Source of the DNA: Arcticibacterium luteifluviistationis
Lineage (GTDB): Bacteria > Bacteroidota > Bacteroidia > Cytophagales > Spirosomataceae
DNA: 64,000 bases
Assembly (NCBI RefSeq): GCF_003258705.1
Contig: NZ_CP029480.1
Coordinates: 1,240,001 to 1,304,000, forward strand
Direction of reading: 5' to 3'
Positions 8,841-42,193 of this stretch are shown here, one piece after another. The notes under the pieces are model-generated. The model was given only the letters and a program-made list of their open reading frames with translations, ran no database searches and was not told the DNA's origin. Made by a program: the position numbers and the translations under genes. Numbering within the stretch: the stretch's first letter is position 1; every line of letters begins with the position of its first letter.

Positions 8841-9860
8841 ATGGAGACAAACAAGGTCACAATACATGACATTGCAAAGAGTTTAAACATTGATAGTTCC
8901 ACGGTTTCAAGAGCCTTGAACGATAGCCCTAGAGTTACTCAAAAAACCAAGGATAAAATCTTAGCAAAGGCTCAAAGTATGGGCTATCAGCGAAATATGC
9001 TGGCCTCAAATCTGCGAAAAAACGTAACCAATAGTATTGGTGTGGTAATACCCAGAATTTCGCGACACTTTTTCTCTTCCGTTATTCAAGGTATAGAAGA
9101 AACTGCCTATGACGCAGGCTACAGTGTGGTCATCTGTCAATCGCTAGAAGAACTAAAAAGAGAGCGTAATATCATTCAGACCTTAGTGGCTAATAGAGTG
9201 GCTGGTGTTTTGATTTCCATCTCCATGGAAACTACAAATTATGAGCATTTCCAAATTTTAAACAGTCAGGGTATACCTTATGTTTTTTTTGATCGTCATT
9301 GTGAAATACCGGCGAACAATAACGTAATCATAAATGATTTTAAAGGAGGGTATGATGCCACCCAACATTTAGTATCGAAAGGTTGTAAAAACATTCTTCA
9401 TTTTTCAGGGCCTGGTCATTTAGAAATATATAAGAACCGCTTAAAAGGTTACAAAAAAGCTCTATCTGATAACAATATCCTTTTTAAGACCGAAAATATA
9501 ATCAGTTCTAAGCTGATGGAACAAGACGGCAAAGTCATTACCAAAAAGCTCATGGACGATAAGGTAAACTTTGATGGTATCTTTTGTGCCAACGACCAAG
9601 TAGCCATAGGAGCTATAAAATATTTGAATGAAATAGGTGTAAAAATCCCTGAACAAGTAGCCATAGTAGGATTTAGTAATGAACCTGTTTCTAATGTAAT
9701 AACACCTAGTTTAACGACTATTGACCAACCCGGCTTTGAAATGGGGATAAAAGCAACAGAATTACTTATTAAAAACATAAAAGACCAAAGTGGGACATTG
9801 CCACCTGAAACAATTACTATGGAAACAAACCTTATTGAACGTAATTCGTCTCAGAAATGA
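8841..9860 (+). CDS. LacI-family transcriptional regulator
   Basis: The 339-residue protein has an N-terminal LacI helix-turn-helix (residues about 4-50: VTIHDIAKSLNIDSSTVSRALN...) with the hinge region near 55. The periplasmic-binding-like effector domain follows from about 60 to 330 (NSIGVVIPRISRHFF..., CANDQVAIGAIKYL, TTIDQPGFEMG). It is transcribed divergently from kduI-kduD-DUF4861 and the two promoters share the palindrome at 8787, so it most likely represses that operon and itself. The inducer is unknown; a keto-deoxy uronate pathway intermediate is a reasonable guess from context. Confidence 0.93.
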   Translation: METNKVTIHDIAKSLNIDSSTVSRALNDSPRVTQKTKDKILAKAQSMGYQRNMLASNLRKNVTNSIGVVIPRISRHFFSSVIQGIEETAYDAGYSVVICQSLEELKRERNIIQTLVANRVAGVLISISMETTNYEHFQILNSQGIPYVFFDRHCEIPANNNVIINDFKGGYDATQHLVSKGCKNILHFSGPGHLEIYKNRLKGYKKALSDNNILFKTENIISSKLMEQDGKVITKKLMDDKVNFDGIFCANDQVAIGAIKYLNEIGVKIPEQVAIVGFSNEPVSNVITPSLTTIDQPGFEMGIKATELLIKNIKDQSGTLPPETITMETNLIERNSSQK

Positions 9861-10040
9861 ATTATTAAGTACCTAACCTATTAAAAAAGCTACAACGCTA
9901 AACTATTGGGATGTAAACAATTTAGCCATTGCTTCTATATTAAAAAGGTTTAATGTTTTTGGTTTTAAAGGCTTAGTTTAAGATTATTGTTATTAAGTTA
10001 CTAACAATCAAACAGTTTAGATTACTCAAGCAAGCGTAGA

Positions 10041-13000
10041 ATGAGTTTAAAGAAGTATCTTTTTATTTTTTGTTATTTACTAAGCAGTATTTGTATTGGA
10101 CAATTCAACAATTTAAAATTTGAGAATTTAGATACATATAATGGGCTGTCTAGTAGTACATGCTTTGAGATATTTCAGGACCAAGATGGCTTTTTATGGT
10201 TTGGAACCATAGATGGTTTAAATAAATACAATGGCCATGAATTTGAGATTTTCAGGTCGGAACTAAACAATCAAAAGACATTAAGCAACAATAGAATTAA
10301 CGCCATAGAAGAAGATAGCGAAGGCAATTTATGGATTGGTACCAATAATGGATTAAATCTATATAACAAACAAACCAATGCTTTCACTAGAATAAATCTA
10401 TATAGCCAAGTCTCATTGGCAAATAGCTCTCAAAAAATCATAAATGACCTATTATTTGATGATACTACAAAAAAACTGTGGGTAGCCACTAATAATGGAG
10501 CTATTAAAATTGCTCTGGGAGACCATAGTGCCAACTCCAAAAACTATGAATATTCATACTACTTAAAAGACCAAACGGACGCAAACTCTTTAGATGACAA
10601 TATTGTAAATGTTATCTTAAAAGACGGTGACCAGAAAATATGGATTGGCACCAATGGTCAAAACTTAAATAGATACAATCCTACTAAAAACAACTTTGAC
10701 CGAATTCCAATACAAAATCAAAAGCCTTACGAGCTAAACCATAAGCCCAAAAAAGTATTCATAGATGCTGATGGTGACTTTTGGATAGGAAACGACCTTT
10801 CCAACTTGATTCTATGGAAGAGAAAAGAAAACGAATTCAAGCATGTTGCTTTGGTTAACAAAACCATCCCAATTCATGATATTTATCAAGACAAAAATGG
10901 CCTTTTCTGGGTTTCAGCTGATGCCTTTGGCCTATATTTGTTTTCAAAAGACAAAGGAGAAGTAAAGCTAGAAAAGCATATCGAAAGCAATACCTCCGAC
11001 CCCTTCTCTCTACCAAACAACAAACCCGCCAAAATATTCGAAGATACAAAAGGAATATACTGGATAGGCAGTTATGACAAAGGCGTTAGCAAACTAGACC
11101 CCACTAACTATTCTTTTGGCCATTACTATTATCAAGCTAACAACCCTAATGGCTTAAATGAGAAAATAGTCCAGTCTGTATTAGAAGACTCCAAAGGGAG
11201 AATTTGGATTAGTGCTTATAATGGAGGCCTTAACCTTTTTGACGAGAAAACGAAGTCGTTTAAACATTATAGTAGCAGCCGAACTGGCTTAAGTTCCGAC
11301 AGGATTCTATACACTTTTCAAAGCAGTGATGGGAGTATTTGGGTTTGTACATTAGACGGAGGTGTAAATAAATTCAACCCTGAGAACAACAGTTTTCAGA
11401 CTTTCCTTCACAAAAAAAACGACCCTAATTCTATAGGTCAAAGTTCAGTATGGACAGGCACCGAAGATAAGTTAAAAAGGATATGGTTTGGATTAAGAAC
11501 CGAAGGACTAAGCCTTTACGACCCTAAGACCGGCCATTTTAAGACATACAAAAACACAAATATTAAGGAGAAAGGCTTAGTAAGCAACTCGGTAATTTGC
11601 AATTTTATTGATTCTCAAAACCGCCTTTTCATAGGTACCTCACTCGGCTTAAATTATGTGGAACTTGACAAGCTGGATGGTTATATTCCAAAAGACATCC
11701 CTTTTAAGCTTATTAAAGAAAAAAATTTAGAAGGTGCCGGAATAAACTATGTGACCGAGGATAGTTCAGGTAATATCTGGATAGGGTCAGATTATGGAGT
11801 TTATAAGCTAAACAAAAAATTAAAACTTGAAAAGTCATACTCCTCCAATAATGGTTTACCCAACAATCTTGTCATAGGAATAAAAGAGGACAACAATAAA
11901 AAGATATGGATAACCACCAAAGGGGGCTTGTCTTTGCTAGACCCAAAAACAGATAATTTCAAAAACTATAATGTTCATGATGGAATTCAAGGGCCCGAAT
12001 TTCAGACAAAGTCCATTGAAAAAACGAAAAACGGACGTATCATAGTTGGAGGTATTAATGGTTTCAATATTTTTCAGCCTAGTGACATTAAAACCTCAAA
12101 TACCGATAGCCTGCACCCACTGATAACAAAGTTTAAACTAAATAATAAAATAGTTTCTGCCGGAGATACCATCAATGGACGCGTGCTTCTAAATAAGGGG
12201 ATTTCGAAAACTAAAAACCTTACTTTAAAGTACAATGAAAACTATATCTCGTTTGAGATTGTGGCTCTTCATTTTGACAATTCTGAACAGGTCAAGTACG
12301 CTTACAGAATGAAAGGACTTGATAACGAATTCATTAGTCTAGGCTCTAACAGAGTTGTAAATCTTTCAAACTTAGAATTCGGAAATTATATTTTTGAAGT
12401 GAAAGCTTCGCTTACTGGCGATTGGGATTCGGCTGAAACGGCCTATTTAAACATTGAAATCACCCCTCCTCTTTGGAGAACTTGGTGGGCGTATCTGATT
12501 TACTTCATTTTGGGTTCACTCCTGCTATGGGCCTTAGTGCACTACTATACCCTCAAAATACGAGAAGACCAGCAGCATGAGTTAGACCAAAAACAACTAG
12601 AGTTTTTCATGAATGTGTCTCATGAGTTTAGAACGCCTTTAACGCTTATTCTAAATCCCGTAAATAAAATATTAGCCAATTTCGGAAATGACCCACAAGT
12701 GATAAAAGCCTCCGCTACATCTATACAACGAAGTGCAAGGCGACTGATGCACTTGGTAAACCAATTACTGGATTACCGGAAAATGGACGTTGGCATGTAT
12801 CCTATGCAGTTAGAAAAAGGGGATATTGTCAAGTTTAGTAAAGAGATATTTTCACTTTTTAAAGATTTAGCTCTAAAAAAAGATATCCTCTACACATTTA
12901 AAAATAGCCCAGAGACTATCAACTGCCTTTTTGACTTTGATAAAGTTGAAAAAATCATCACTAACTTAATTTCAAACGCCATAAAATTCACCAACAGCGA

Positions 13001-14228
13001 AGGTTCTATTTCTGTATCGGTTGAGAAAATTAAGCTTCCAGCCAGTAATTCAAAACTCGCTTTATTTAAAAAGAAAGAATTGACAGACTACATTCTTCTG
13101 ACGGTAGAAGACACTGGAATTGGCCTAGATACAGACCAAAAGCAAAACATTTTTTCACGCTTCTACAGTATTGACAAAACTAAATCAGGAACTGGAATTG
13201 GGCTTAATTTCACCAAAGGATTAGTAGAACTTCATGGCGGTGAAATATCAATAGATAGTAAACGAAAAAAAGGAACAAAATTCATTGTTAAACTACCTTA
13301 CGATGTAAAATCAAAACCCAAAAATGTAGAAAACGTCAAAAATGAATACCTCATAAATTCTATGAGAGCTGTGGAATATGATATGCTAATATCAAACGAC
13401 ACCACTTCTGACAACAATGATGACAAAAAGTCTAAGCTAATTACCAATGAGAAACTACCAATGGTGCTCATAGTAGAAGACAATAAAGAATTAAGAGTAC
13501 ACCTGACCAATGACCTTAAAGACTCGTATCAGGTAAAAGAGGCTGTTAATGGAGAGGAAGGACTAAAAATGATAGAAAAGCACCATCCTGACATAGTAAT
13601 TTCTGATGTGATGATGCCCAAAATGGATGGCTTTGAGATGTGTAAATTGATGAAAACCGATTTAGAAACATCTCACATTCCTATAATATTATTAACTGCC
13701 AGAACATTAGAAGAAGACCGCATAGAAGGTTATGAAAATGGTGCTGACGGCTATCTATCTAAACCTTTTTCTATTGACGTTCTTAGGTCTAGAATAAGCA
13801 ATCTTTTGGTGGCAAAAAACAGGCTACGCCAACGCTTCTCAGAGATTGGAGGTGTTTTTCCGTCAAGAGAAGTCACTACCAACAATATTGATGAGGCGTT
13901 TTTAGATAAAGCGACAAGAATAGTCATGAAAAACATCAGTGACCTTGATTTCAAACAAGAAGATTTACTGAAAGATATGCATTTGGGAAGGTCACAGTTT
14001 TATAGAAAAATAAATGCTCTAACCGGAAACAATCCTAGCCATTTTATAAGAACCATTCGCCTTCGTTACGCTTCGGATTTGCTGCTAAAAAACGAATATT
14101 CTATCAAAGAAATTACCTATATGGCAGGATTCAACTCTACCGCATATTTCAGTAAAACCTTCCGTGAGTTATTTGAACTTACCCCTACTCAATATATGGA
14201 GCAAGCTGCAAAAACCGTAAAATCGTAA
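10041..14228 (+). CDS. Hybrid two-component system regulator (HTCS)
   Basis: This 1395-residue one-protein sensor-regulator starts with a signal peptide. A periplasmic Reg_prop beta-propeller follows, with many repeats of the DGxLWFGTxxGLN type (about 25-690), then a Y_Y_Y domain (about 700-800) and one transmembrane helix (about 817-837). The cytoplasmic part has a HisKA domain with phospho-acceptor His861 in NVSHEFRTPLT and a HATPase domain (about 970-1095, DTGIGL, GTGIGL). A receiver domain follows with Asp1189 in ISDVMMPKMDG, then a C-terminal AraC-type HTH (about 1290-1390). HTCS proteins sense glycan breakdown products in the periplasm and switch on the local utilisation genes. A truncated ghost of this gene's 3' end lies at 20612-20704, and the last 36 bp of the gene are part of the 113-bp repeat shared with that site. 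Confidence 0.95.
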   Translation: MSLKKYLFIFCYLLSSICIGQFNNLKFENLDTYNGLSSSTCFEIFQDQDGFLWFGTIDGLNKYNGHEFEIFRSELNNQKTLSNNRINAIEEDSEGNLWIGTNNGLNLYNKQTNAFTRINLYSQVSLANSSQKIINDLLFDDTTKKLWVATNNGAIKIALGDHSANSKNYEYSYYLKDQTDANSLDDNIVNVILKDGDQKIWIGTNGQNLNRYNPTKNNFDRIPIQNQKPYELNHKPKKVFIDADGDFWIGNDLSNLILWKRKENEFKHVALVNKTIPIHDIYQDKNGLFWVSADAFGLYLFSKDKGEVKLEKHIESNTSDPFSLPNNKPAKIFEDTKGIYWIGSYDKGVSKLDPTNYSFGHYYYQANNPNGLNEKIVQSVLEDSKGRIWISAYNGGLNLFDEKTKSFKHYSSSRTGLSSDRILYTFQSSDGSIWVCTLDGGVNKFNPENNSFQTFLHKKNDPNSIGQSSVWTGTEDKLKRIWFGLRTEGLSLYDPKTGHFKTYKNTNIKEKGLVSNSVICNFIDSQNRLFIGTSLGLNYVELDKLDGYIPKDIPFKLIKEKNLEGAGINYVTEDSSGNIWIGSDYGVYKLNKKLKLEKSYSSNNGLPNNLVIGIKEDNNKKIWITTKGGLSLLDPKTDNFKNYNVHDGIQGPEFQTKSIEKTKNGRIIVGGINGFNIFQPSDIKTSNTDSLHPLITKFKLNNKIVSAGDTINGRVLLNKGISKTKNLTLKYNENYISFEIVALHFDNSEQVKYAYRMKGLDNEFISLGSNRVVNLSNLEFGNYIFEVKASLTGDWDSAETAYLNIEITPPLWRTWWAYLIYFILGSLLLWALVHYYTLKIREDQQHELDQKQLEFFMNVSHEFRTPLTLILNPVNKILANFGNDPQVIKASATSIQRSARRLMHLVNQLLDYRKMDVGMYPMQLEKGDIVKFSKEIFSLFKDLALKKDILYTFKNSPETINCLFDFDKVEKIITNLISNAIKFTNSEGSISVSVEKIKLPASNSKLALFKKKELTDYILLTVEDTGIGLDTDQKQNIFSRFYSIDKTKSGTGIGLNFTKGLVELHGGEISIDSKRKKGTKFIVKLPYDVKSKPKNVENVKNEYLINSMRAVEYDMLISNDTTSDNNDDKKSKLITNEKLPMVLIVEDNKELRVHLTNDLKDSYQVKEAVNGEEGLKMIEKHHPDIVISDVMMPKMDGFEMCKLMKTDLETSHIPIILLTARTLEEDRIEGYENGADGYLSKPFSIDVLRSRISNLLVAKNRLRQRFSEIGGVFPSREVTTNNIDEAFLDKATRIVMKNISDLDFKQEDLLKDMHLGRSQFYRKINALTGNNPSHFIRTIRLRYASDLLLKNEYSIKEITYMAGFNSTAYFSKTFRELFELTPTQYMEQAAKTVKS

Positions 14229-14305
14229 CACTTAGTTGTTTAATTCAGGCATTTCTGCGTCTACCACGCTTTGCCATTGTTTTAAATCAGCCGCTAATTC
14301 TTTGG
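14193..14305. repeat. 113-bp direct repeat, copy 1
   Basis: This copy is identical to 20669-20781 except for two C/T differences just after the regulator stop codon, with no gaps (constant offset 6476). It covers the last codons of the hybrid regulator and, convergently, the last codons of a sulfatase gene. In copy 2 the sulfatase is complete and the regulator is a ghost; here the reverse is true. Confidence 0.95.
14232..14305 (-). pseudogene. 3' fragment of a sulfatase gene
   Basis: On the minus strand this stretch matches the final 74 bp of the sulfatase at 20708-22096 without a mismatch, including its stop codon. Right of 14305 the similarity stops abruptly. It is a dead duplicate end, not a gene. 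Confidence 0.9.
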
Positions 14306-14329
14306 TCTCGGTTATTTTTTTTGACGCTA

Positions 14330-14520
14330 ACCATTTTAAATTATGACGTAGAAAGCATAATTAAAACTAGCCGCTAATTAAGCTTTCAAGCTAATTGAAG
14401 CCAAAACTCCTCAACACTTTAATCCACTAAAAACAAGATTCAATTAGCTTACGCTTGTAAAAACCTATATTTTAAATCCTGCCAAACAAAGCTAAATATA
14501 GCACCTAGAGGTCTCTAGTT
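14330..14520. repeat. Intergenic region homologous to the one upstream of 25421
   Basis: Blocks shared in the same order with 25075-25260 include TTTAAATTATGA, AAGCATAATT, TTCAAGCT and ACCTATATTTTA, with small gaps between. Nothing codes here. It is a diverged duplicate of the regulatory region between the GH97 and MFS genes, now serving the GH10 operon. The rest of the gap from 14521 to 14658 is AT-rich and shows no gene. Confidence 0.65.
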
Positions 14521-14658
14521 TTATTTGAGAGCATAAAATTAAATTTTTAAATGATACTAATTTTATTACAAATAGAGTGGAGTTTTTATGCTTTATACAA
14601 CTTGAATTATTAAAAATATTATTGAAATAATTTCATAATGACAATAAACTTAACTAAC

Positions 14659-14681
14659 CTTATGGTATAATTAACCATAAG
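14659..14681 (+). promoter_or_regulatory. Inverted repeat just upstream of the GH10 gene
   Basis: CTTATGGT (14659-14666) and ACCATAAG (14674-14681) form a perfect 8-bp inverted repeat with a 7-bp spacer, ending 12 bp before the ATG. It is a good candidate operator for the xylan operon, for example for the Nudix-type regulator at 19622, or a 5'-UTR hairpin. Confidence 0.45.
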
Positions 14682-14693
14682 CTACAACGAATC

Positions 14694-15818
14694 ATGAAAT
14701 TTAGTCTCTATAAAATGACAAGATTGTCTTTATTATTTTTTTTAGTTATTCAAATTTTCTCCTGTCAAAACGTCGAAAAAGAAGAGTTATCGCTAAAAAA
14801 CGCTTTTGAAAATGACTTCATAATTGGAACAGCAGTAGGTGTATCAGAAATTAATGGAAGTAATCTGTTGGCAGATAAATTGATCAAAAAACAGTTTAAA
14901 GTTATTACTCCGGAAAATGATATGAAAAGTGAGATAATACATCCTGAATGGGATAAATACGACTTTGAAGTTTCGGATAAAATCATTGCCTTTGGAGAAA
15001 ATAATAATATCGATATTGTTGGCCATACCTTAATTTGGCATAGTCAATTATCACCGTTTATTAGCGAAGATATTTCATCAGACTCACTGAGACTATTTAT
15101 GGAAAACCATATTAATACTGTAGGTGGTCGTTATGACGGAAAAGTTTTAGGCTGGGATGTTGTAAATGAGGCATTGAATGAAGATGGAACATTAAGGAAT
15201 TCTATTTTTTTACAGAAATTAGGAAAAAATTATATCAAATATGCATTTGAATATGCAAATAAGGCAACCCCTAATTCAGAGCTTTACTATAATGATTATA
15301 ACATAGAACAGCCCGAAAAGCGAGAAGGCGTTATTAAGCTGGTGAAATCTATCCAGGATGCTGGTTTAAGAATAGATGGTGTTGGTATTCAGGCACATTG
15401 GAGTATTAATAATTTGCCATTAAAAGAAATAGAGGAAAGTATTATAGCTTTTAGTAAACTAAATGTAAAAGTTATGTTTACGGAACTTGATCTTACGGTT
15501 CTTCCTAACCCATGGGAACTCCAGGGGGCAGATGTCAATCAAAACTTTGAAGGAGATCCTAAAATGAACCCATATGTTGATGGGCTACCCATTGAAGTTG
15601 AGCAAAAGTTAGCTGAAAGCTATAAAAGCCTTTTTGAACTATTTTTAAAGCATAGTGATAAAATTAGTAGAGTCTCTTTTTGGGGTGTAAATGACGGTCA
15701 ATCTTGGCTTAATGGTTGGCCTATTAATAATAGAACTAATTATCCTTTACTTTTCGATAGAGACTATAAGCCCAAAAAGGCTTTTTATGAAGTAATTCAA
15801 TTAAAAGCCAAACAATAA
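14694..15818 (+). CDS. GH10 endo-1,4-beta-xylanase, lipoprotein
   Basis: The 374-residue enzyme begins with a lipoprotein signal (lipobox IFSC, Cys about 24), so it is probably anchored at the outer membrane or periplasmic face. The GH10 (beta/alpha)8 domain runs from about 35 to the end, with the acid/base Glu159 in WDVVNEAL and the nucleophile Glu264 in FTELDLTV. Also visible are GHTLIWHSQ and FWGVNDGQSWLNGWP near the C-terminus. It hydrolyses the beta-1,4-xylan backbone. It heads an operon with a GPH symporter (its stop overlaps the next ATG by one base) and a cytoplasmic GH43, a complete xylo-oligosaccharide uptake and hydrolysis set. Confidence 0.96.
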   Translation: MKFSLYKMTRLSLLFFLVIQIFSCQNVEKEELSLKNAFENDFIIGTAVGVSEINGSNLLADKLIKKQFKVITPENDMKSEIIHPEWDKYDFEVSDKIIAFGENNNIDIVGHTLIWHSQLSPFISEDISSDSLRLFMENHINTVGGRYDGKVLGWDVVNEALNEDGTLRNSIFLQKLGKNYIKYAFEYANKATPNSELYYNDYNIEQPEKREGVIKLVKSIQDAGLRIDGVGIQAHWSINNLPLKEIEESIIAFSKLNVKVMFTELDLTVLPNPWELQGADVNQNFEGDPKMNPYVDGLPIEVEQKLAESYKSLFELFLKHSDKISRVSFWGVNDGQSWLNGWPINNRTNYPLLFDRDYKPKKAFYEVIQLKAKQ

Positions 15819-17257
15819 TGCCAACAAATAAAATAAAAAGCAATACGCATAAACTTTCAGTATTAGAAAAAGTAGGCTATAGTTTGGGAGATTTGGCTGC
15901 AAATCTAGTTTTTCAAACGCTAGTGACCTACCTAGCTTACTTCTATACAGACATTTATGGTCTAAAACCTGAAGATGCTACCTTAGTGACTCTTTTTGTG
16001 GGTCTGTTTGCCGCTTTCGTCTTTAACCCAGTGATGGGGGCCGTAGCAGACCGTACCAGTACTCGTTGGGGTAAATTTAGACCTTGGATTTTGTGGACAG
16101 CCGTACCACTAGGTTTAGCAGCATTGTTAGCTTTTAGTACTCCCGATTTTTCTTATAAAGGGAAAGTCATTTATGCTATTATCACCTATAGTTTATTGTT
16201 GCTTCTTTATGCCGCCAATAACCTTCCCTACTCCGCTTTAAGTGGAGTTATCACTGGAAATATGGCGGAACGTAATAGTATGTCCGCCTATCGTTTTGTG
16301 GCGGTGATGTTCTCGCAGTTTTTTGTACAGGTGTTTATGTATAATCTCATCCTAAAAGCTGGTGATGGCGATAAAGCCGCAGGTATTGAAAAGGTGATGA
16401 CCATCTTGGCCATTGTTGGTACTGTAATGCTTCTGATTACTTTCTTTACCACCAAAGAAAGAGTAGTGCCTAAACCCGAGCAGAAATCGACTTTGAAAGA
16501 AGACTTGGGTGATTTATTTAAAAACATCCCATGGATCATCATGCTGGTAGTTACTACTTTGGTATTCATTACGCTGGCACTTAAAGGTGGCTCTTATGTG
16601 TATTATTTTGAAAACTATGTCAGTCCAGACTCCTTAACTAGCTTTTTGTCTCCATTAAAACCGTACTTACCCAAATTTGAAAATGATATTTCAATGGGTC
16701 TTGGGGTATTTAATGGTGGTGGTATTTTAATTGGCCTTATAGGCATCATGCTATCTAAAACATTGGCAGATAAGTATGGAAAAAGAAATGTATTTGGAGC
16801 TTCTCTATTTGTCTCTACGCTATTCATTATAGTATTTTATTTCTTCCCGCCACAGGCAATAGGTCTTATATTTGGTTGTCAGATATTACATATGTTTTTC
16901 TATGGCATCAGTACCCCTATCTTATGGACCATGATAGCTGACGTAGCAGATTACTCAGAATGGTTAAACAACCGCAGAGCCACTGCCATTATTTTCTCTG
17001 CCATGATGGTAGGCCTGAAGGGTGGCTTGAGCATCGGTAGCTCTCTGCTTACACTCATTTTAGGCATCTTTAATTATATGCCTCAGTCAAGTAGCGAGCA
17101 GTCTCCCGAAACCATAAACGGCATCAAAATGCTGGTTAGTATTTTCCCAGCAGTTCCATTTTTAATAGCCGTGGGGCTCATATTTTTCTATAAAATAAAC
17201 AAAGCCATGGAATTGAAACTAGAATCAGAATTAAAAATCAGAAGACAAGAAAACTAA
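15818..17257 (+). CDS. GPH-family sugar:cation symporter
   Basis: The 479-residue integral membrane protein has about 12 hydrophobic segments. The N-terminus VGYSLGDLAANLVFQ followed by a helix and the D-R-T-S-T-RWGKFRPW loop is typical of the glycoside-pentoside-hexuronide (MelB/XynP-like) family. It should carry xylo-oligosaccharides or xylosides across the inner membrane with H+ or Na+. The ATG overlaps the GH10 stop as TAATG, so the two are translationally coupled. GH43 follows 17 bp later. Confidence 0.92.
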   Translation: MPTNKIKSNTHKLSVLEKVGYSLGDLAANLVFQTLVTYLAYFYTDIYGLKPEDATLVTLFVGLFAAFVFNPVMGAVADRTSTRWGKFRPWILWTAVPLGLAALLAFSTPDFSYKGKVIYAIITYSLLLLLYAANNLPYSALSGVITGNMAERNSMSAYRFVAVMFSQFFVQVFMYNLILKAGDGDKAAGIEKVMTILAIVGTVMLLITFFTTKERVVPKPEQKSTLKEDLGDLFKNIPWIIMLVVTTLVFITLALKGGSYVYYFENYVSPDSLTSFLSPLKPYLPKFENDISMGLGVFNGGGILIGLIGIMLSKTLADKYGKRNVFGASLFVSTLFIIVFYFFPPQAIGLIFGCQILHMFFYGISTPILWTMIADVADYSEWLNNRRATAIIFSAMMVGLKGGLSIGSSLLTLILGIFNYMPQSSSEQSPETINGIKMLVSIFPAVPFLIAVGLIFFYKINKAMELKLESELKIRRQEN

Positions 17258-17274
17258 AATTACTTATTATTGAA

Positions 17275-18318
17275 ATGCCAGAAAATAGCATAGAACATAT
17301 TGATTTTAAAGAGTTAAATGAAAAGTCGATTTCACAGCCATTAGTCAAACACATTTATACCGCAGATCCTTCTGCTCATTATTTTAACGGCAAAATCTAC
17401 ATTTACCCATCTCATGATGTTGATGCTGGTGAGGCATTTGATGATTTGGGAAGTCACTTTGCCATGGAAGACTACCATGTGATCTCTATGGACACGGTAG
17501 ATAGCGAAGCCTTGGACAATGGCATTGCTCTACATGTAGATGATGTGGCCTGGGCAGATAAACAAATGTGGGCACCAGATGCCAACGAAAAAGACGGTAA
17601 ATACTATCTATTTTTTCCTGCCAAAGGCTATGATGGAATTTTTAAAATCGGCGTAGCGATAAGTGACTCGCCTACCGGGCCTTTTACTTCACAGCCTGAA
17701 GCCATCAAAGATAGTTTTTCCATTGACCCAGCTGTTTTTAAAGATGACGATGGCAGCTACTACATGTATTTTGGTGGTATTTGGGGAGGGCAATTGCAGC
17801 GTTGGAGAGAAGGTGTATTTAATGCTTCTGAACCTGACAGCCCTTTTGCTCATTTACCGGCAGACGATGAACCAGCTCTTTGCCCTAAAGTGGCAAAAAT
17901 GACTGACGACCTTCTAGAGTTTGCACATGAGGCTAAAGACCTAGTAATTTTAGATGAAAAAGGCGATCCATTACTTCAGGGAGATACAGATAAAAGGTTT
18001 TTTGAAGCCGCATGGATGCATAAGTATAATGGCAAATATTACTTCTCTTATTCTACGGGTGATAGCCATTTAATCTGTTATGCTATAGGTGATAATCCGT
18101 ATGGACCATTTACCTATGCAGGTAAAGTATTAGAACCCGTTGTAGGTTGGACGTCGCACCACTCCATCTGTAAAATAGAAAACGATTGGTATTTGTTTTA
18201 TCATGATTCCAGCCTTTCTAAAGGAACTACTCATTTACGTAGTGTAAAAATGACAAAAATCACTCATTTGTCTGATGGCTCTATAGAAACTATTAATCCA
18301 TATAGAGCAACCTTTTAA
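17275..18318 (+). CDS. GH43 beta-xylosidase / alpha-L-arabinofuranosidase
   Basis: The 347-residue five-bladed beta-propeller hydrolase lacks a signal peptide, so it is cytoplasmic. The three GH43 catalytic acids are recognisable: Asp31 in YTADPSAH (base), Asp151 in SIDPAVF (pKa modulator) and Glu244 in FFEAAWM (acid). It probably releases xylose (or arabinose) from oligosaccharides imported by the adjacent symporter. It is the third gene of the GH10 operon, and pentose-phosphate genes follow. Which of the two sugars is preferred cannot be read from the sequence. Confidence 0.92.
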   Translation: MPENSIEHIDFKELNEKSISQPLVKHIYTADPSAHYFNGKIYIYPSHDVDAGEAFDDLGSHFAMEDYHVISMDTVDSEALDNGIALHVDDVAWADKQMWAPDANEKDGKYYLFFPAKGYDGIFKIGVAISDSPTGPFTSQPEAIKDSFSIDPAVFKDDDGSYYMYFGGIWGGQLQRWREGVFNASEPDSPFAHLPADDEPALCPKVAKMTDDLLEFAHEAKDLVILDEKGDPLLQGDTDKRFFEAAWMHKYNGKYYFSYSTGDSHLICYAIGDNPYGPFTYAGKVLEPVVGWTSHHSICKIENDWYLFYHDSSLSKGTTHLRSVKMTKITHLSDGSIETINPYRATF

Positions 18319-18516
18319 AAATCAGATCTTGTATTTCGCAGGATAATACATTGGAAATCCATCTGTATAAGCTGCACTAGTTGACATTAAAAGTATCAAA
18401 AGCATAAGTGTCGTCAGCAACCTGAATCAGTAATAAGCATATTAACACTGAAAATGGATGGGCTACACAGGGTATAATTCCTAAATAAGCATCTATTCGG
18501 CTTATCATCAAGCCTT

Positions 18517-18681
18517 CCAGTGAACTTACAAGGTCTTGTTGGCAACAGCGGTAAGATGCTTGGTTTAGAACATTTTGGTTTTTCTGCACCTGCATCTGTT
18601 TTGGACGACAAATTTGGTTTTACCCCAGAAAAGGTAAGCCAAGAAATTTTAAAGTATTTAAAAATAACTAATAATAATTAA
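18517..18681 (+). pseudogene. Transketolase 3' remnant
   Basis: The only open part of the frame encodes a transketolase C-terminus (GLVGNSGKMLGLEHFGFSAP, then FGFTPEKVSQEILKYLK) ending in TAA at 18679-18681, one base before the transaldolase ATG. Everything upstream to 18319 is non-coding or unrecognisable; a transketolase needs about 2 kb. An intact transketolase probably once stood between GH43 and transaldolase and was lost by deletion. Confidence 0.82.
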
Positions 18682-18682
18682 T

Positions 18683-19339
18683 ATGAAGTTTTTCATAGAC
18701 ACAGCAAACCTAAACGATATTGCGGAAGCACAAGCATTAGGTATTTTAGATGGCGTAACCACAAATCCTTCTTTGATGGCGAAAGAAGGTATCACAGGAA
18801 AAGAGAATATATTAAATCACTATAAAGCTATTTGCGATATAGTAGATGGCGATGTGAGTGCGGAAGTTATAGCTACTGATTTTGAAGGAATGGTTAAAGA
18901 AGGGAATGAACTAGCTAATTTGCATTCTCAAATAGTAGTTAAACTACCTATGATTGCTAACGGCGTTAAAGCTTGTAAATACTTTTCTGACAAAGGAATC
19001 AGAACTAATGTAACATTGGTTTTCTCGGCCGGCCAAGCTTTATTGGCCGCTAAGGCGGGTGCAACTTATGTTTCTCCTTTTTTAGGTAGGCTAGATGATA
19101 TTTCAACAGATGGACTAAGTTTAATCTCCGATATTCGATTGATTTATGATAATTACGGATTTAAAACTCAAATTTTGGCTGCTTCTGTCAGACATTCAAT
19201 GCACGTTATTAATTGTGCAAAAATTGGGTCCGACGTAATGACAGGCCCATTATCATCTATTGTGGGTTTATTGAAACACCCTTTAACAGATTCAGGTCTT
19301 GCCAAATTTTTAGAAGATTATAAAAAGGTTAATCAATAG
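18683..19339 (+). CDS. Transaldolase, short MipB/TalC-like form
   Basis: The 218-residue (beta/alpha)8 aldolase belongs to the short transaldolase / fructose-6-phosphate aldolase group. It carries [23 protein letters not shown] and the Schiff-base Lys87 in VVKLPMI, with [18 protein letters not shown] and ILAASVRH. It moves a dihydroxyacetone unit between sugar phosphates in the non-oxidative pentose phosphate path. It follows the dead transketolase end and the GH10-GPH-GH43 genes, so it fits pentose catabolism from xylan. Transaldolase is preferred over F6P aldolase from context; the residues visible do not settle it. Confidence 0.92.
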
Positions 19340-19465
19340 GGTATTTCTTACCCCATATTCATAATAGCAAAAAATGATTCGTAATCACATTTAATCTATA
19401 AGGGGCTAAAACGCTGGTTCAGCTTTAATAATCAATTTAATTTCCATAACTCTGTTTTCTTAATG

Positions 19466-19497
19466 TTTCTAGATAGGCCTCAAAGCCTATCTAGAAA
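19466..19497. terminator. Perfect hairpin between convergent genes
   Basis: TTTCTAGATAGGC (19466-19478) and GCCTATCTAGAAA (19485-19497) form a perfect 13-bp stem with a 6-nt loop. It lies between the convergent transaldolase and Nudix genes. No T-tract follows on either strand, so it is only a probable terminator. It could instead be a palindromic repeat. Confidence 0.5.
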
Positions 19498-19621
19498 ACA
19501 GTGTATATTTTCAATCACGAACTAAGAATATTTATATCAGCCGATTGAAAATTAACTCAGAATGGTGTCAAACTCAATAAAAAAAACAGAAAGCGAGCCA
19601 AAACTTAATTATCGCATCACA

Positions 19622-20308
19622 CTAAATCTCGAAAGTAAAACCTTTTTCAATGAGCTTATTATACATCGCTTCGTCAAACCTGTACAACATAGCCGCACGG
19701 TGAGAAACGTCTTGCTCTCTTTCATTACAAGACACTAAAAGATTCATTTTTGAGAACTTGCGTCTGAAATTAGATTTGTCTAGTTTTTGGCCAAGAATGG
19801 CTTCGTAAAGTTCTTGAAGTTGCAGGAGGGTGAATTTCTCTGGTAGTAAATTAAAACCTAAGGGTTCGTGCTGAATTTTGTGCTGAAGGTGAGCGAAACA
19901 GCTATCAAGAATATGACCGTGGTCAAAACTCATGCTAGGCACTTCTCGCACATTAAACCACCGTACTTCTGTAACCGCCGGTCCAGCTTCTAGCTCAAAT
20001 CTGTCAATATTAACCAGTGCATAATATGTAATGGTAATAACTCGCTTGTCGGGAAACCTGTCTAAGTCGCCAAAAGTTTTAAACTGCTCTAGAAAGACAT
20101 TATCTAGTGCTGTTTGAGAAGATAAAATTCGGCTAGCGGCTTCATCCAAACTCTCATTATATTTAATCCAGCTACCAGGAAGAGACCATTGACCTTTAGC
20201 AAGACCTTCTCCGTGTTTTACTATAAGTGCATACAATTCAGCGTTTTTAAAGCCAAAAATGACACAGTCAATAGATAAAGCGTCAATTATTTCGTTAGAA
20301 AGTTTCAA
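19622..20308 (-). CDS. Nudix-domain transcriptional regulator (NrtR/AraR-like)
   Basis: The 228-residue protein has an N-terminal Nudix fold (about 8-140) and a C-terminal winged-helix (about 150-225, FTLLQLQELYEAILG...NFRRKFSKM), the NrtR/AraR-type architecture. In the Nudix box (45-67) the REUxEE signature is degraded: the Arg is kept but the Glu pair reads Ser-Ser, so hydrolase activity is not expected and the domain probably senses a sugar ligand. Regulators of this type control arabinose and xylose genes in Bacteroidota. Its position beside transaldolase, GH43 and GH10 makes it the likely xylose/xylan regulator. The inverted repeat at 14659 is a candidate target. Confidence 0.87.
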   Translation of the reverse strand: MKLSNEIIDALSIDCVIFGFKNAELYALIVKHGEGLAKGQWSLPGSWIKYNESLDEAASRILSSQTALDNVFLEQFKTFGDLDRFPDKRVITITYYALVNIDRFELEAGPAVTEVRWFNVREVPSMSFDHGHILDSCFAHLQHKIQHEPLGFNLLPEKFTLLQLQELYEAILGQKLDKSNFRRKFSKMNLLVSCNEREQDVSHRAAMLYRFDEAMYNKLIEKGFTFEI

Positions 20309-20611
20309 GAGCTGTTTGGTGCAAGGTTAAGCCGTAAAGTTACATTAAGAATAGCTACTGGCAAATTTGAGAAAGGGAGATTGACTTGTCGGCCAATCTT
20401 CTTTTTGAGTTAAATATATCCGTAATACACTCGATTCTTCATTCTTCTCAATTTTTGTTAAATCAATTTGTCGACATCTATTTTAGGCAGCAATAGTAAA
20501 AAAAACTCCGATTTTGAACTTTTCTTATTCGAAGATATGATTTTCAAGAAAGACCTTTCCTTGAAATAATAAAGCCAACCTCTACCAAACTTCATTGCCT
20601 ACATTCATTAT
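20309..20611. other. Intergenic DNA, no gene seen
   Basis: No credible reading frame is present. A short stretch near 20510-20570 (FEDMIFKKDLSLK in one frame) faintly resembles the kinase region of the hybrid regulator, in keeping with the clearer ghost that begins at 20612, but this is too weak to call. Confidence 0.35.
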
Positions 20612-20704
20612 TTGGAGGTGTTTTCCCTTCAAGTGAAGTCACTACCAACAGCATTTACGCAACTTTGGTATATGGAGCAAGCTGCAAAAACCGTAAAATC
20701 GTAA
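20612..20704 (+). pseudogene. Ghost of the hybrid two-component regulator 3' end
   Basis: 20612-20655 matches the regulator gene near 13847-13890 (TTGGAGGTG...GAAGTCACTACCAACA). 20669-20704 matches its final codons and stop at 14193-14228. About 300 bp of the DNA-binding domain is missing in between. It is a decayed second copy of the regulator, convergent with the intact sulfatase. Confidence 0.85.
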
Positions 20705-20781
20705 TATTTAGTTGTTTAATTCAGGCATTTCTGCGTCTACCACGCTTTGCCATTGTTTTAAATCAGCCGCTAATTCTTTGG
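20669..20781. repeat. 113-bp direct repeat, copy 2
   Basis: Partner of 14193-14305 (two mismatches). Here it spans the end of the regulator ghost and the 3' end of the intact sulfatase. Confidence 0.95.
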
Positions 20782-22096
20782 CTTTGGCTGGGTACTTTTT
20801 AAGCAAATTTATTTGTTCACCTAAATCCTCTTTTAGGTTATAAATAAACTCCTCTTCTGTTTCAAATTCATAAATATACTTCCAGTCTCCTTTTCTGATA
20901 GCTGCACCCATTGAAAGCCCTTCTTTTCTGTGATGTGGAAAGTGCCAGTAAAGTGACCTTTCAGGAAATTCGTTTTGATCATTAAGTAATGGCAATAAGC
21001 TTTTACCTTCTAATTGACCGTAATCCTCTGGCGAACCACCAGCCAACTGAAGCAAAGTAGGAAAAAGGTCAACACTTGTAACTGGTGTTTCACAAATACT
21101 AGCGGCTTTAATCTTCCCAGCCCAATTGACAATCATAGGTACACGAATACCTCCTTCATGAAGCGTACCTTTCTTTCCTTTGAGCGGAGCGTTTCCCCAC
21201 AGTCCACCATTATCCGAATAAAAAATAACGACAGTATTTTCAAGCAAACTTAGCTCCTTTAATTTATCCATTAGCTTACCTATATTTTGGTCAAGCTTGT
21301 TAATCATTGCGAAGTACTTATTTCCACCAAATTTCTCCAATGTTTCCTTTGGTGCTGCCAATGGCGTATGAACTGTATAAGTCGCAAAATTCAGAAAGAA
21401 AGTTTTATCCTTATTATTTTCTACAAAAGCCACAGCTTCATCACCCAATCTGTCTGTCAAATATTCACCATCTGGGCCATCTTTTATAGTTCCATTTTTA
21501 TAAGGCGAAAAGTAGCTAGCCGGTTGCCCGTAAGCACAGCCGGCAATATTAACGTCAAAACCATGGGCATTGGGTAAGTACCCTTTATTGACAATGCCAT
21601 CTTCGGTATAAATAGAACCCTCGCCCCCTAAATGCCATTTGCCAATATAGCCAGTAGTGTAACCTTGATTTTTCAGAGCTTCTCCATTAGTTAATTCTTC
21701 ATGAGGCAAATGGTCCACAAAATAGCCTTCCTTTAACTTTTTCCCTTTGTTTAAATTGGTTAAATACTTTTCCATACCCATACCAGGAATGTGGCAAGTT
21801 AATTTTAAAGCCGCTGGTGATTTACCTGTCAAAATACTAGCCCTGGTAGGCGAGCAAACAGGTGCCGCCGCATAGGCATCAGTAAACATCATACCGCTTT
21901 CTACCAATTTATCAATATTAGGGGTTTGAATTCCCTCTTTATGTTTCATGTAGCCCACATCAGAATAACCTAAGTCATCTACCATTATGAGTACAATGTT
22001 TGGCTTACTTTCACTCGTGACCGTACTTTCTTCGATAAAAGCAAACGAGATAGCTATGAGTATAATAGCTATTAAACTTATCCAGATATTTTTCAT
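20708..22096 (-). CDS. Family S1 sulfatase
   Basis: The 462-residue formylglycine-dependent sulfatase has an N-terminal signal/anchor segment and the S1 start block PNIVLIMVDDLGYSD (metal-binding Asp pair). The modification site is Cys81 in CSPTRAS, with GKWHLG and SDNGG further on. It removes sulfate esters from a glycan in the periplasm after maturation of Cys81 by a formylglycine-generating enzyme not encoded here. It is the last gene of GH97 - GH117-like - sulfatase on the minus strand, 5 bp after its neighbour. Its 3' end is duplicated as a fragment at 14232. Confidence 0.95.
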   Translation of the reverse strand: MKNIWISLIAIILIAISFAFIEESTVTSESKPNIVLIMVDDLGYSDVGYMKHKEGIQTPNIDKLVESGMMFTDAYAAAPVCSPTRASILTGKSPAALKLTCHIPGMGMEKYLTNLNKGKKLKEGYFVDHLPHEELTNGEALKNQGYTTGYIGKWHLGGEGSIYTEDGIVNKGYLPNAHGFDVNIAGCAYGQPASYFSPYKNGTIKDGPDGEYLTDRLGDEAVAFVENNKDKTFFLNFATYTVHTPLAAPKETLEKFGGNKYFAMINKLDQNIGKLMDKLKELSLLENTVVIFYSDNGGLWGNAPLKGKKGTLHEGGIRVPMIVNWAGKIKAASICETPVTSVDLFPTLLQLAGGSPEDYGQLEGKSLLPLLNDQNEFPERSLYWHFPHHRKEGLSMGAAIRKGDWKYIYEFETEEEFIYNLKEDLGEQINLLKKYPAKAKELAADLKQWQSVVDAEMPELNN

Positions 22097-22101
22097 TAAT
22101 G

Positions 22102-23109
22102 CTAATCTTGTTTCATTTCAAACCTTAACAAATATGTCTTCTTGTTTTTTTGAACCATGGCTATTCCCCAGTTCTCAGTGTCTCTTTCAGAGCTATTAAT
22201 TAAGCTTGGCCTATATAAACCCGGTGCTTTAGGAATGTTTACCAAATCCTGATAAAGAGGACTAAAATTAAGGCCATCAGCAGCTAAATAAACACTCTGG
22301 CTGAATGATGCCAAAGATGCTACACCCTCGTTTTCTGTCCAAATTAAAACCTCATGGCTTTTATCTAAAATTGGTTCTCTGTTTTTAACAAAAGGACCTT
22401 CAGGCCTGTCAGCAAAAGCGACTCCCATCTGGGTCAATTTTGGCCCGTTCTTTCCATGACTCATAGACCTACCTTTATAATACAGCCATACTTTATCCTC
22501 TCTAACCAGTAAACTCGCGTCGTCTACTCTATAACTGTCAAAGTCTTTGGTCACGTCAGAGACCGTTAAAACTGGGTTGTGCTCTACACGGACAAAAGGT
22601 CCATTTGGACTATCAGAGACAGCCAGACCTATTGCTGTAAAATCATTCATAGAATTCCCTTCAAATTCATTATTAACATTCCCCTCGGTAGGTTTCACCG
22701 CAGTATAATACAGATAGTATTTACCATTTTGAACTAAAATATTAGGCGTAAAAACGGAATGACTATCAAAAGCACCTTGCTCTCCCAAACCCAGGGCCAT
22801 TCCCTGCTCCTTCCAAGTGAAACCTTCGTCTGATGAAGTAGCATACCAAATAGTACCCCAATAACCAGAAGTTACAGGGCTATCCATACGTGTATACCAG
22901 ATATAATAAGTATCGCCAACTTTTATAATATCACTATTATCTCGCCTATTATAAAGTGAATCACTCCCAATACCGATAATTTCGGAGTACTTAAATTTCA
23001 GATTCCTGCCATTTGCTTTTACCGTTCCCCGTTCGCCATCTTGAGCATTGGCACTTTCGCTTGTACAAACAATGCCCATCAATACAAATAGTAATTTAAT
23101 AACTTTCAT
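22102..23109 (-). CDS. GH117-like beta-propeller glycosidase
   Basis: The start at 23109 is preferred because it gives a clean signal peptide (MKVIKLLFVLMGIVCTSESANAQ); the longer frame from 23163 overlaps GH97. The 335-residue product is a five-bladed propeller with RRDNSDIIKVGDTYYIWYTR, FDSHSVFTPNILVQNGKYYLYYTA, YRVDDASLL and WTENEGVAS. The spacing of acidic residues is as in GH117 and the wider GH43 clan. GH117 enzymes cleave terminal alpha-1,3 linkages of 3,6-anhydro-L-galactose in marine galactans, but relatives act on other sugars, so the substrate is open. GH97 lies 16 bp upstream and a sulfatase 5 bp downstream, suggesting exo-trimming of a sulfated glycan. Confidence 0.7.
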   Translation of the reverse strand: MKVIKLLFVLMGIVCTSESANAQDGERGTVKANGRNLKFKYSEIIGIGSDSLYNRRDNSDIIKVGDTYYIWYTRMDSPVTSGYWGTIWYATSSDEGFTWKEQGMALGLGEQGAFDSHSVFTPNILVQNGKYYLYYTAVKPTEGNVNNEFEGNSMNDFTAIGLAVSDSPNGPFVRVEHNPVLTVSDVTKDFDSYRVDDASLLVREDKVWLYYKGRSMSHGKNGPKLTQMGVAFADRPEGPFVKNREPILDKSHEVLIWTENEGVASLASFSQSVYLAADGLNFSPLYQDLVNIPKAPGLYRPSLINSSERDTENWGIAMVQKNKKTYLLRFEMKQD

Positions 23110-23125
23110 TCTTAAAGTTTTAATT

Positions 23126-25030
23126 CTAATTATTTGGCCTAATCCATAGGCAGTGTCCTCCACCGGCTACCATTTGCACCTTTATCACATCTCCCTTTTT
23201 GACTGTTCCTTTTCTAATTTGATAAGCCTCTGGATTAGTTTTGCTGTCAGTTTCTTGAGTGTCTTCATAGTAAGTTACTTGGTACTCTTTTCCATCTTCA
23301 AGGAAATCTAAATTTATAGCTAAACTACCACCTTTACTATGTACTGAACCTATAAACCATTCGTCGTCATGCCTTCTAGCTGTAGAAATATAGTCATCCA
23401 TTTTAGCATGTAACACCTTAGTTTCATCCCATTTCCCTACTGGCATTTTTTTAATAAATTCAAACAAATCTAACTTAGCCGCATAGGCCTCTGGAGCATC
23501 TGGAATACAAACTAAGCCACTAAAAATAATTAGTGTCCTGGCCACTTCCGCAGTAACCGTAGTTCTCAAAGAATTTAACTCTTTAGGGCCTTTTTGTCTT
23601 TTCCCAGAATTAACTCCTGTAATATCAAAAATGCCATTATTCATATCTAAAGGCCCTTGCAATGCATTAATAAGAGCCATTCTGATAAATGCTTCTGGTG
23701 TAAAAGCACGCCTTGAATCTTGCTGGGCATGACAATACTCTCTGGAAATGGCATTAGGATAAGTTCTGGTCATGCCCGTAAAGGGTACCGGACTATCATG
23801 AAAATCTATGAGCAATTTACTTTCAGCACTCAAGCGAATAGCCTCTCTAGAAAACGATACATTATTTCCCATAAAGCCATATTTAATACCACTCATTCCT
23901 AAAGACTTATAGTATGGAAAAAGCTCCTCGTCTCCATATACACCTTTATGTCTATCATAATATAAAATCAAGTCTACACCTTTCTCCTTTGCGTAATCCG
24001 AAACCTTTTGTAAATCCAATTTATCAGACATTTCTATATGTCCTTTTTTCACATCAGTGTACCAAGAATCGTCTATTAAGAAATACTCGATTTCGTGCTC
24101 AGCTGCAAAATCAATAAAACGATAATAGCTCTCATTGTCAATGCCATAAGTAAAGCCATCGGCTGCTTTATAGCTATGTACTCTCCAATCCCACAGCGTT
24201 TTCCCAGGCTTAATCCAAGACGGGTCTTCTATCTTATTAGCCGCTGCCACATTGAGGGCTATGGTATTGGTTACCAAGTCACCTATATTTTTCTCAATCA
24301 AAATTAGTCGCCAAGGAGTCACTAAACCATCATCAGTATTTGAAAACCGATTCCTTCCTACCAGCTTATTCTCAAACTTAAAATCAATGACATTGAAACC
24401 TGGAGCACTGGCCAAATCCGACTCCAGAAGAGCTACAAAATGCTTGTCTTTGGCTTCTACCAAAAGCGGCATCAGTAATTTTTGCTTGTTTGTGGAGTCA
24501 GATAAGTAGTTTAATCTAAATGGCCCTTTAGGCTTACTCTCTCCTGCTGGTGTATATAAATTACTAGCCTCGGATAAGCCATATTCCATAAAAAACTCAG
24601 CCTTTGTATTATTCGGAATGTTTTCAACTATATAGCGAAAAGCTACACCACCATTATATGCTCTGATGTAAAGCTTAACAGGTATGGTTTCATAAAGCAG
24701 TGAAAGCTCTAGCTCATTGTACAGGTTTTCAATTTCACTAAACTGCCCCCAAACTGGCTTCCACTTTTCTTTCACGCTCTTCAGTTCAGTTCCCAAAACC
24801 TTGACCTCCGCATTAGGAAAAATTGACATCTTAGATTTTGATAGCAACTCGTCCCCTTCTACGTTTATGGAATAATGAAAGACCTTGCTTTGAGTGTCAA
24901 TATTTACTGAAACTTTACCATTCGGTGACTCTAGTTCCTTTTGAATTGGCTCTGTACTTTTAGGAAATGCACTTATTTTGAGGCTTAAGGAAAGGAATAA
25001 AACCATTCCAAGTATGGCCTTTATCTTCAT
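23126..25030 (-). CDS. GH97 family glycoside hydrolase
   Basis: The 634-residue periplasmic enzyme has a signal peptide and the GH97 order of domains: an N-terminal beta-sandwich (about 30-280, with ELESPNGKVSVNI and AYNGGVAFRY), a (beta/alpha)8 barrel (about 290-560, with YFLIDDSWY, IKYGFMG and LIDFHDSPVPFTGMTRTYPN) and a C-terminal beta domain. GH97 contains calcium-dependent alpha-glucosidases (inverting) and alpha-galactosidases (retaining). I did not assign the mechanism. It is the first gene of a three-gene minus-strand operon and diverges from the MFS gene at 25421. It is clearly paralogous to the second GH97 at 31122 but far diverged. Confidence 0.92.
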   Translation of the reverse strand: MKIKAILGMVLFLSLSLKISAFPKSTEPIQKELESPNGKVSVNIDTQSKVFHYSINVEGDELLSKSKMSIFPNAEVKVLGTELKSVKEKWKPVWGQFSEIENLYNELELSLLYETIPVKLYIRAYNGGVAFRYIVENIPNNTKAEFFMEYGLSEASNLYTPAGESKPKGPFRLNYLSDSTNKQKLLMPLLVEAKDKHFVALLESDLASAPGFNVIDFKFENKLVGRNRFSNTDDGLVTPWRLILIEKNIGDLVTNTIALNVAAANKIEDPSWIKPGKTLWDWRVHSYKAADGFTYGIDNESYYRFIDFAAEHEIEYFLIDDSWYTDVKKGHIEMSDKLDLQKVSDYAKEKGVDLILYYDRHKGVYGDEELFPYYKSLGMSGIKYGFMGNNVSFSREAIRLSAESKLLIDFHDSPVPFTGMTRTYPNAISREYCHAQQDSRRAFTPEAFIRMALINALQGPLDMNNGIFDITGVNSGKRQKGPKELNSLRTTVTAEVARTLIIFSGLVCIPDAPEAYAAKLDLFEFIKKMPVGKWDETKVLHAKMDDYISTARRHDDEWFIGSVHSKGGSLAINLDFLEDGKEYQVTYYEDTQETDSKTNPEAYQIRKGTVKKGDVIKVQMVAGGGHCLWIRPNN

Positions 25031-25074
25031 ATTATTTATAGGGTTGATCTTTACATCACAAGATTAAGAAACAT

Positions 25075-25260
25075 TTATGTAAACCAGTTTAAATTATGAT
25101 GCGATAAGCATAATTCAATGTTCATTCTGTCATCATTTAGCTTCTAACTTAGCATTCAAGCTGGTTTAAAGTATAATTTCCTGCAATTTAATCGACCGAA
25201 AAGGACGTTCTATAAGCCTACATTTGCAAAAGACCTATATTTTATACCCTTTGATTCATG
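25075..25260. repeat. Intergenic region homologous to the one upstream of GH10
   Basis: This divergent promoter region lies between GH97 (minus) and the MFS gene (plus). It shares ordered blocks with 14330-14520. It also carries AAACCAG...CTGGTTT arms about 70 bp apart, which might be sites for a dimeric regulator. No gene is present between 25031 and 25420. Confidence 0.6.
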
Positions 25261-25381: not shown

Positions 25382-25420
25382 TGCAATCAATTATAAAACA
25401 GCGTAACCCTATCAATTATA

Positions 25421-42165: not shown

Positions 42166-42193
42166 TAAAAATTCATAGAATGCAACTACCATT

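Follow-up and report, generated by a model that had tools for sequence, protein, structure and literature searches.

Closest described systems

The closest counterpart of the gene cluster discussed here is that of Aureibaculum luteum SM1352 and A. flavum A20, in which the genes for a hybrid two-component system regulator (HTCS) and a sulfatase lie adjacent and convergent, with GH97 and major facilitator superfamily (MFS) genes beyond. The same genes are found in the 64,000-nucleotide stretch of Arcticibacterium luteifluviistationis that we analysed (NZ_CP029480.1, positions 1,240,001 to 1,304,000; the window), where a group of xylan- and pentose-type genes lies at the HTCS-sulfatase junction, between two copies of a 113-bp direct repeat. 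In contrast, the Aureibaculum junction is free of this module, the xylan-type trio is found elsewhere, and some window genes have no partner in that cluster.

For the trio itself, a GH10 gene, a GPH-family symporter gene and a GH43 gene, the nearest locus is in a genome of the host's own family, the Spirosomataceae (G033). Gene order is the same there, with 89% identity for GPH and 82% for GH43, but the Nudix gene (63%) is directly upstream and divergent, whereas that of the window is downstream; neither an HTCS nor a sulfatase match is present in the 19.9 kb of that locus. The Nudix protein of the window resembles BtAraR, which excerpts of one report (PMC4666351) describe as a member of the NrtR family that regulates how Bacteroides thetaiotaomicron uses arabinose, in that it appears to belong to the NrtR family, with Nudix and NrtR/AraR winged-helix domains; the NCBIfam TransRepNtr score of 129.7 is below the cut-off of 400. 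Lastly, an insertion sequence (IS) of the ISAon1 family at about G000:2048260-2049960, a fuller but broken copy, is matched at its upstream end only by a remnant in the window, where there is no transposase gene. A literature search returned no title or abstract beginning dealing with this locus, and none for Aureibaculum luteum.

The repeat is a duplicated gene junction

A first-pass annotation, made from the window alone, had reported a 113-bp direct repeat with two differences at 14193-14305 and 20669-20781, and we found both copies and both mismatches at these places. Two convergent genes meet in the repeat, which we assign to neither strand: it holds the last 36 bp of the HTCS gene including its stop codon, a 3-bp gap, and 74 bp from the 3′ end of the sulfatase gene. 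Both mismatches fall within the gap (CAC against TAT), between the HTCS stop ending at 14228 and the sulfatase stop starting at 14232, so that none of the 110 coding bases of the repeat is changed (36/36 for HTCS, 74/74 for the sulfatase). Immediately beyond the repeat edges identity falls to 20-40%. The two places are the only ones in the single-contig genome of 5,379,839 bp, as a DNA search (E ≤ 0.001) found no third copy.

Each repeat copy joins one intact gene to the ghost of the other. At the left copy, just as the annotation described it, the HTCS gene (10041-14228, + strand; 1395 aa; Pfam Reg_prop, Y_Y_Y, HisKA, HATPase_c, Response_reg and HTH_18) is intact, its 3′ end falling inside the repeat, and the sulfatase survives as the last 74 bp of the gene (14232-14305, − strand), identical to 20708-20781. 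At the right copy the sulfatase gene is intact (20708-22096, − strand; 462 aa; PF00884, 2e-57) and an HTCS ghost is present as claimed, but this is not the single run 20612-20704 that had been proposed. It consists of an outer piece of 39 bp (20612-20650, + strand; 36/39 identical to 13846-13884), an unrelated filler of 18 bp, and the 36 bp within the repeat (20669-20704), and is without the 308 bp corresponding to 13885-14192. The outer piece is well above chance: the right spacer, with the repeat excluded, gave a local score of 63 against the HTCS gene, and 300 shuffles gave 23.8 ± 2.4 with a maximum of 33. Because the junction was doubled, both flanking genes have kept a whole 3′ end.

The annotation had proposed a search of relatives for a module-free arrangement, and both Aureibaculum genomes that we found (A. 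luteum, locus L102; A. flavum, L103) carry it: HTCS and sulfatase genes, nearly or fully complete, are convergent and adjacent, with 38 bp between their aligned ends. Identities of A. luteum to the window are 74% for HTCS (full length), 73% for the sulfatase and 72% for GH97. The junction-like stretch is single in each of the two fetched loci, so that a direct repeat present at both ends of the insert corresponds to one copy in insert-free relatives, as is found for insertions with flanking duplication. The right flank of A. luteum is largely colinear with the window, with GH97 and MFS followed by partners of the genes at 26810, 28254, 31122, 33151, 36795, 39162 and 51697; its stretch beyond MFS holds no partner for the window gene at 35936 or for those at 41029-49804, and a match to GH43b, the second GH43-type gene of the window, is absent in L102, unlike L103. 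The junction is known from this one genus only, since no sulfatase ortholog was seen in the approximately 11 kb past HTCS at 20 HTCS loci in 19 other genomes of the A. luteum family. Three of those 20 loci (L147, L149 and L150) share the left-hand gene order SDR-KduI-LacI-HTCS with the window.

Regulator and enclosed genes have different affinities

Against 221 other genomes of the host family, the best HTCS match was of 34% identity (two candidates scored per genome), whereas 20 of 397 sampled genomes of the A. luteum family gave matches at E ≤ 1e-270, of 53-74% identity; in the sampled host order (390 genomes) two others reached that threshold, at 54% and 46%. In an HTCS tree of 35 rows, the window protein groups with the two Aureibaculum rows (support 100/100), within a clade of 25 rows made up of 22 Flavobacteriaceae, two host-order rows and the window HTCS, although the tree output warns that long branches meet at the split from ten host-family rows. 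From these identity counts and this placement we take the HTCS to be of Flavobacteriaceae type, and its affinities suggest that it would have moved into this lineage and not out of it. In a plasmid search with the HTCS, the best 5000 records were all below 60% identity.

The flanking sugar-degradation cluster looks borrowed from a distant relative, but less clearly so than its regulator. Its sulfatase is 73% identical to that of Aureibaculum; identity is 69-71% in three other genera, which belong to several families (Algibacter, Echinicola and Carboxylicivirga, the last of these uncultured). It also has matches (E ≤ 1e-120) of 61-63% in 2 of the 221 host-family genomes. Beside these lie a GH43b relative (60%) in one case (L071, genome G118) and a GH97 relative (50%) in the other (L070, G149); no HTCS was seen within the two stretches, which are 4.3 kb each. 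Parts of the sulfatase block thus occur in the host family too.

The enclosed genes point elsewhere. GH43 has matches in 168 of the 221 other host-family genomes (E ≤ 1e-110), of up to 84% identity. At 20 host-family loci chosen from GH43 and Nudix matches, GPH and GH43 are adjacent in 18, and GH10 is directly in front in 11 of these 18. In the tree of GPH and GH43 the window pair is sister to that of G033 (support 100/99), while the Aureibaculum pair branches outside the ten-row group, a second, more distant host-family set lying elsewhere in the tree. GPH identity is 82-89% in nine host-family loci versus 69% in Aureibaculum, where the trio belongs to a longer operon, on a contig other than that of the HTCS-sulfatase junction. 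With GPH and GH43 of host-family type and the HTCS of Flavobacteriaceae type, we therefore have a family-type module in a cluster with a foreign-type regulator, and this contrast is the main addition of our analysis. The module as a newcomer from Aureibaculum was considered and rejected, as identities within the host family are higher and the GPH-GH43 tree agrees.

The remaining genes of the insert also have relatives in the host family. The Nudix gene has relatives of 71-79% identity in ten host-family genomes, and weaker ones in two more; a transaldolase match is present in 215 of 222 host-family genomes, the host's own included. Neither transketolase nor transaldolase had a match at E ≤ 0.1 in the 20 host-family trio/Nudix loci or in 27 loci of other groups, and no match to the transketolase ghost of the insert was found beside the transaldolase in 29 other host-family loci (flanks of up to 1.5 kb) or beside the second transaldolase copy of the host's own genome. 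The Nudix gene is upstream of the GPH-GH43 pair in four of the 20 loci and downstream and convergent in four; as both arrangements occur in the host family, its order alone proves nothing, and a circular intermediate, deduced from its being downstream of the trio here and upstream in G033, was rejected.

A copy of a cluster promoter region precedes GH10

About 20 bp past the sulfatase remnant starts a copy (14329-14480, + strand) of the sequence that precedes the MFS gene in the same cluster (25082-25320, + strand), from which it has diverged by about 28%. The two match in colinear pieces (blastn: 14329-14362, 82%; 14368-14480, 70%; partner 25082-25250), with an alignment score of 117 against 45.4 ± 7.0 and a maximum of 70 for 300 shuffles, and no other place in the host's own genome covers both pieces (search at E ≤ 1). 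A search of the + strand of the window for the string CCTATATTTTA gave 14464, 25234 and 52901 only, the last of these inside an open reading frame (ORF).

The MFS-upstream region itself matches the two Aureibaculum promoter regions (over 25228-25320), with scores of 143 and 129 against shuffle means of 51 and 48. The GH10 copy compared with the same regions is at chance level (69 and 70 against 56.7 ± 8.0 and 55.5 ± 8.1), and the GH10 spacer had no match better than E 0.01 in the 20 host-family loci. Both Aureibaculum loci have a fucosidase-like gene between GH97 and MFS, and A. flavum also has a GH43-like match there; because these intervening genes are absent from the window, the matching promoter region lies directly before its MFS gene (25031-25420).

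Origin of the arrangement

The HTCS remnant, the sulfatase remnant and the promoter copy stand in the same order as their originals, so that more than one piece is duplicated and the pieces are colinear, as in a tandem duplication. Since the promoter copy lies beyond the sulfatase ghost, the arrangement favours duplication of a longer segment followed by deletions over a one-step insertion. Duplication and deletion around insertions are a well-known type of event.

The reading that we prefer, to which we would give an even chance of being right, is that a tandem duplication reaching from HTCS to the MFS promoter was trimmed by deletions, with the module now between the copies. A segment of the cluster from within HTCS to at least the MFS promoter would have been duplicated in tandem. 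The left copy would then have lost most of the sulfatase gene, GH43b and GH97, which would bring the promoter to about 20 bp past the sulfatase remnant, and the right copy would have lost most of its HTCS gene, adjoining an IS insertion. An operon of host-family type, GH10-GPH-GH43, with pieces of pentose catabolism, would have come between the copies, downstream of the promoter copy. The 113-bp junction could have been homogenised afterwards by gene conversion, or could come from a younger event.

Several observations weigh against this reading. Divergence is uneven: 2/113 in the repeat, 3/39 in the outer HTCS piece and about 28% in the promoter region. The coding bases of the repeat differ from the outer piece in this respect (0/110 vs 3/39, Fisher p 0.017), whereas the whole repeat does so only at p 0.11 (2/113 vs 3/39). 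With divergences of about 28%, 8% and 2%, one has to suppose either that the repeat was homogenised afterwards or that the events were separate, and gene conversion is here an assumption and not an observation. The HTCS ghost is slightly more similar than the intact HTCS gene to A. luteum (34/39 vs 31/39) and to A. flavum (33 vs 31), but polarity is weak, as at the three sites where the ghost differs the other 20 loci are mixed. We found neither an intermediate, the genomes compared including no other of the genus, nor, in the loci searched, the place from which the module and the transketolase-transaldolase piece came. A borrowed origin, moreover, is clear for HTCS only; the sulfatase block travels widely. 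The idea that the three differences of the HTCS ghost are ancestral, taken from Aureibaculum alone, was given little weight, as the states are mixed across the 22 loci.

The strongest rival, and a possible one although we hold it to be less probable, is a one-step insertion that doubled at least 13846-14305, through a repair event or by single-crossover integration of a circle. Both ghosts would then be the two ends of one duplicated stretch of 460 bp, explained together, and the only later loss to be assumed would be that of 308 bp from the HTCS ghost on the right. When the two repeat copies are recombined in silico, 6,476 bp are lost and the HTCS and sulfatase proteins stay unchanged; under a one-step insertion this excision product would be the exact reverse of the integration. 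What such an insertion leaves unexplained is the ordered, same-orientation copy of the MFS promoter about 20 bp past the sulfatase ghost. Nor does the insert have inverted repeats in its outermost 60 bp, and none of the six genes that the repeats enclose encodes an integrase or a transposase.

This alternative bears on the history offered in the first-pass annotation, a duplicated regulator-sulfatase junction with loss of one partner from each copy, in an event taken as recent unless the repeat still recombines. That the duplication was longer than the repeat is supported by the promoter copy; partner loss is only one of two readings, as an insertion doubling about 460 bp gives the same ghosts. 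A single recent age is not supported, because pieces that differ by 2/113, 3/39 and about 28% have no single age, and a single recent duplication is too simple a reading of the locus.

It is improbable, in our view, that the module is flanked by two related but different alleles of the cluster, each acquired on its own, with an exchange at the junction making the repeat alike. This would accommodate an outer ghost that differs from HTCS at 3 of 39 sites, and is slightly nearer to Aureibaculum, beside a nearly identical repeat. However, the HTCS on the left and the sulfatase and GH97 on the right are similarly close to A. luteum (74%, 73% and 72%), more events are required, and the differences are few.

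More doubtful still is a neutral socket, from which the module would now and then leave as a circle of 6,476 bp and come back, with no harm to the flanking genes, so that populations would vary in whether the copied promoter couples xylan use to the borrowed regulator of the sulfated-glycan cluster. A working mobile cassette, with a recombinase of its own and the 113-bp repeat as its site, is very unlikely. A repeat-bounded unit of 6.5 kb with an IS remnant at one side has the look of one, but there is no recombinase or transposase among the six inside genes, the ends are not inverted, no further repeat copy exists in the genome, the first 36 bases of the repeat have no exact match in viral contigs, and both flanking genes have coding sequence in the repeat. 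The insert is likewise unlike a composite transposon, having a single IS remnant, on the right side only, no terminal inverted repeats and no transposase gene: the outermost 60 bp show no inverted repeats with either of two right ends tried, and the Pfam results for the six genes between the repeats and for the flanking HTCS, LacI, sulfatase, GH43b and GH97 genes contain no transposase or recombinase. Nothing reached Rfam gathering scores in window positions 9000-27000, and there is no tRNA in the window.

An artefact of assembly or sequencing, which a nearly exact repeat might invite, is scarcely credible: excerpts of the genome paper of strain SM1504 report a single scaffold from 315x Illumina and 45x PacBio coverage, the latter from 20-kb libraries with reads able to bridge 6.7 kb (PMC6258284; BioProject PRJNA471374), so that mis-assembly is unlikely, and a mis-join would not create the filler, the deletion or the promoter copy.

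Genes and debris between the repeats

The first-pass name of xylan module fits GH10-GPH-GH43, which open the insert, all on the + strand: a GH10 xylanase-family gene (14694-15818; PF00331, 6e-96), a GPH-family sugar:cation symporter gene (15818-17257; PF13347; TIGR00792, 320 bits against a cut-off of 231) and a GH43 gene (17275-18318; PF04616). The remainder does not fit the name, being a pentose-type tail and an IS remnant. The tail begins with a transketolase ghost on the + strand (18532-18681), the last 49 codons and stop, which matches positions 613-651 of the 654 of TIGR00232 (E 2.7e-4); the rest of that gene was not recognised in the spacer before the transaldolase. The transaldolase/fructose-6-phosphate aldolase gene follows at 18683-19339 (+ strand; TIGR00875, 281.8 bits against 245.95), and the NrtR/AraR-type Nudix regulator gene, with a TTG start in the ORF list, is at 19622-20308 (− strand). 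The latter matches PF21906 (6e-28), PF19368 AraR_C (4e-14) and PF00293 (7e-9), all above gathering scores, and so has the Nudix and winged-helix domains of the AraR/NrtR family. Between these two convergent genes is a 32-bp self-complementary, terminator-like stretch (19466-19497; 88%).

The ISAon1-family remnant (20396-20578, − strand), with the Nudix gene on one side and the HTCS ghost on the other, is clear to about 20521 and weaker to about 20578. It is 83% identical over 130 bp to G000:2049762-2049891, and the transposase ORF at the matching place there is NF049917 ISAon1 (283.9 bits against a cut-off of 250). A further remnant of the family is at G000:1316549-1316674 (L114), upstream of a phage-integrase-family gene. 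The large losses from transketolase, from the IS and from HTCS (308 bp) indicate that deletion has been common inside the insert.

Predicted functions and significance

Judged by its protein families, the GH10-GPH-GH43 trio has the parts for xylan breakdown and uptake. The flanking cluster holds LacI, GH97, alpha-L-fucosidase, sulfatases and heparinase-like genes, and from its sulfatases, GH97, fucosidase and heparinase-like genes a sulfated algal glycan is a likely target. Regulators (HTCS, LacI) are linked to carbohydrate-active enzymes (GH10, GH43, GH97, alpha-L-fucosidase, sulfatases), as in a polysaccharide utilisation locus (PUL). A TonB-dependent receptor with CarbopepD_reg_2 is encoded at 42194-44596, and a Pfam scan, at differing E-value limits, of 32 of the 36 ORFs of at least 120 aa gave no SusD match. 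The passages of the genome paper that were searched include a xylanase in their enzyme list and mention neither sulfatase nor PUL (PMC6258284).

We regard the locus as an unusually readable, yet ordinary, genome rearrangement, and as an example of the rebuilding of a glycan-degradation cluster. Host-family-type genes stand among those of a cluster whose regulator is borrowed, they are preceded by a copy of a promoter from that cluster, and the genes on either side are whole. The copied promoter may put the trio under HTCS control and, if it does, the locus would be an example of substrate sensing rewired by rearrangement.

Two minor features of the window lie to the right of the insert. Direct and inverted repeats are clustered at 49806-51451 around the ORFs 50144-50602 and 50774-51307, neither of which has a Pfam match at E ≤ 0.01. 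GH43b, with the GTG start as listed, shares 38 bp with the end of GH97 (23126-23163); a later start is possible.

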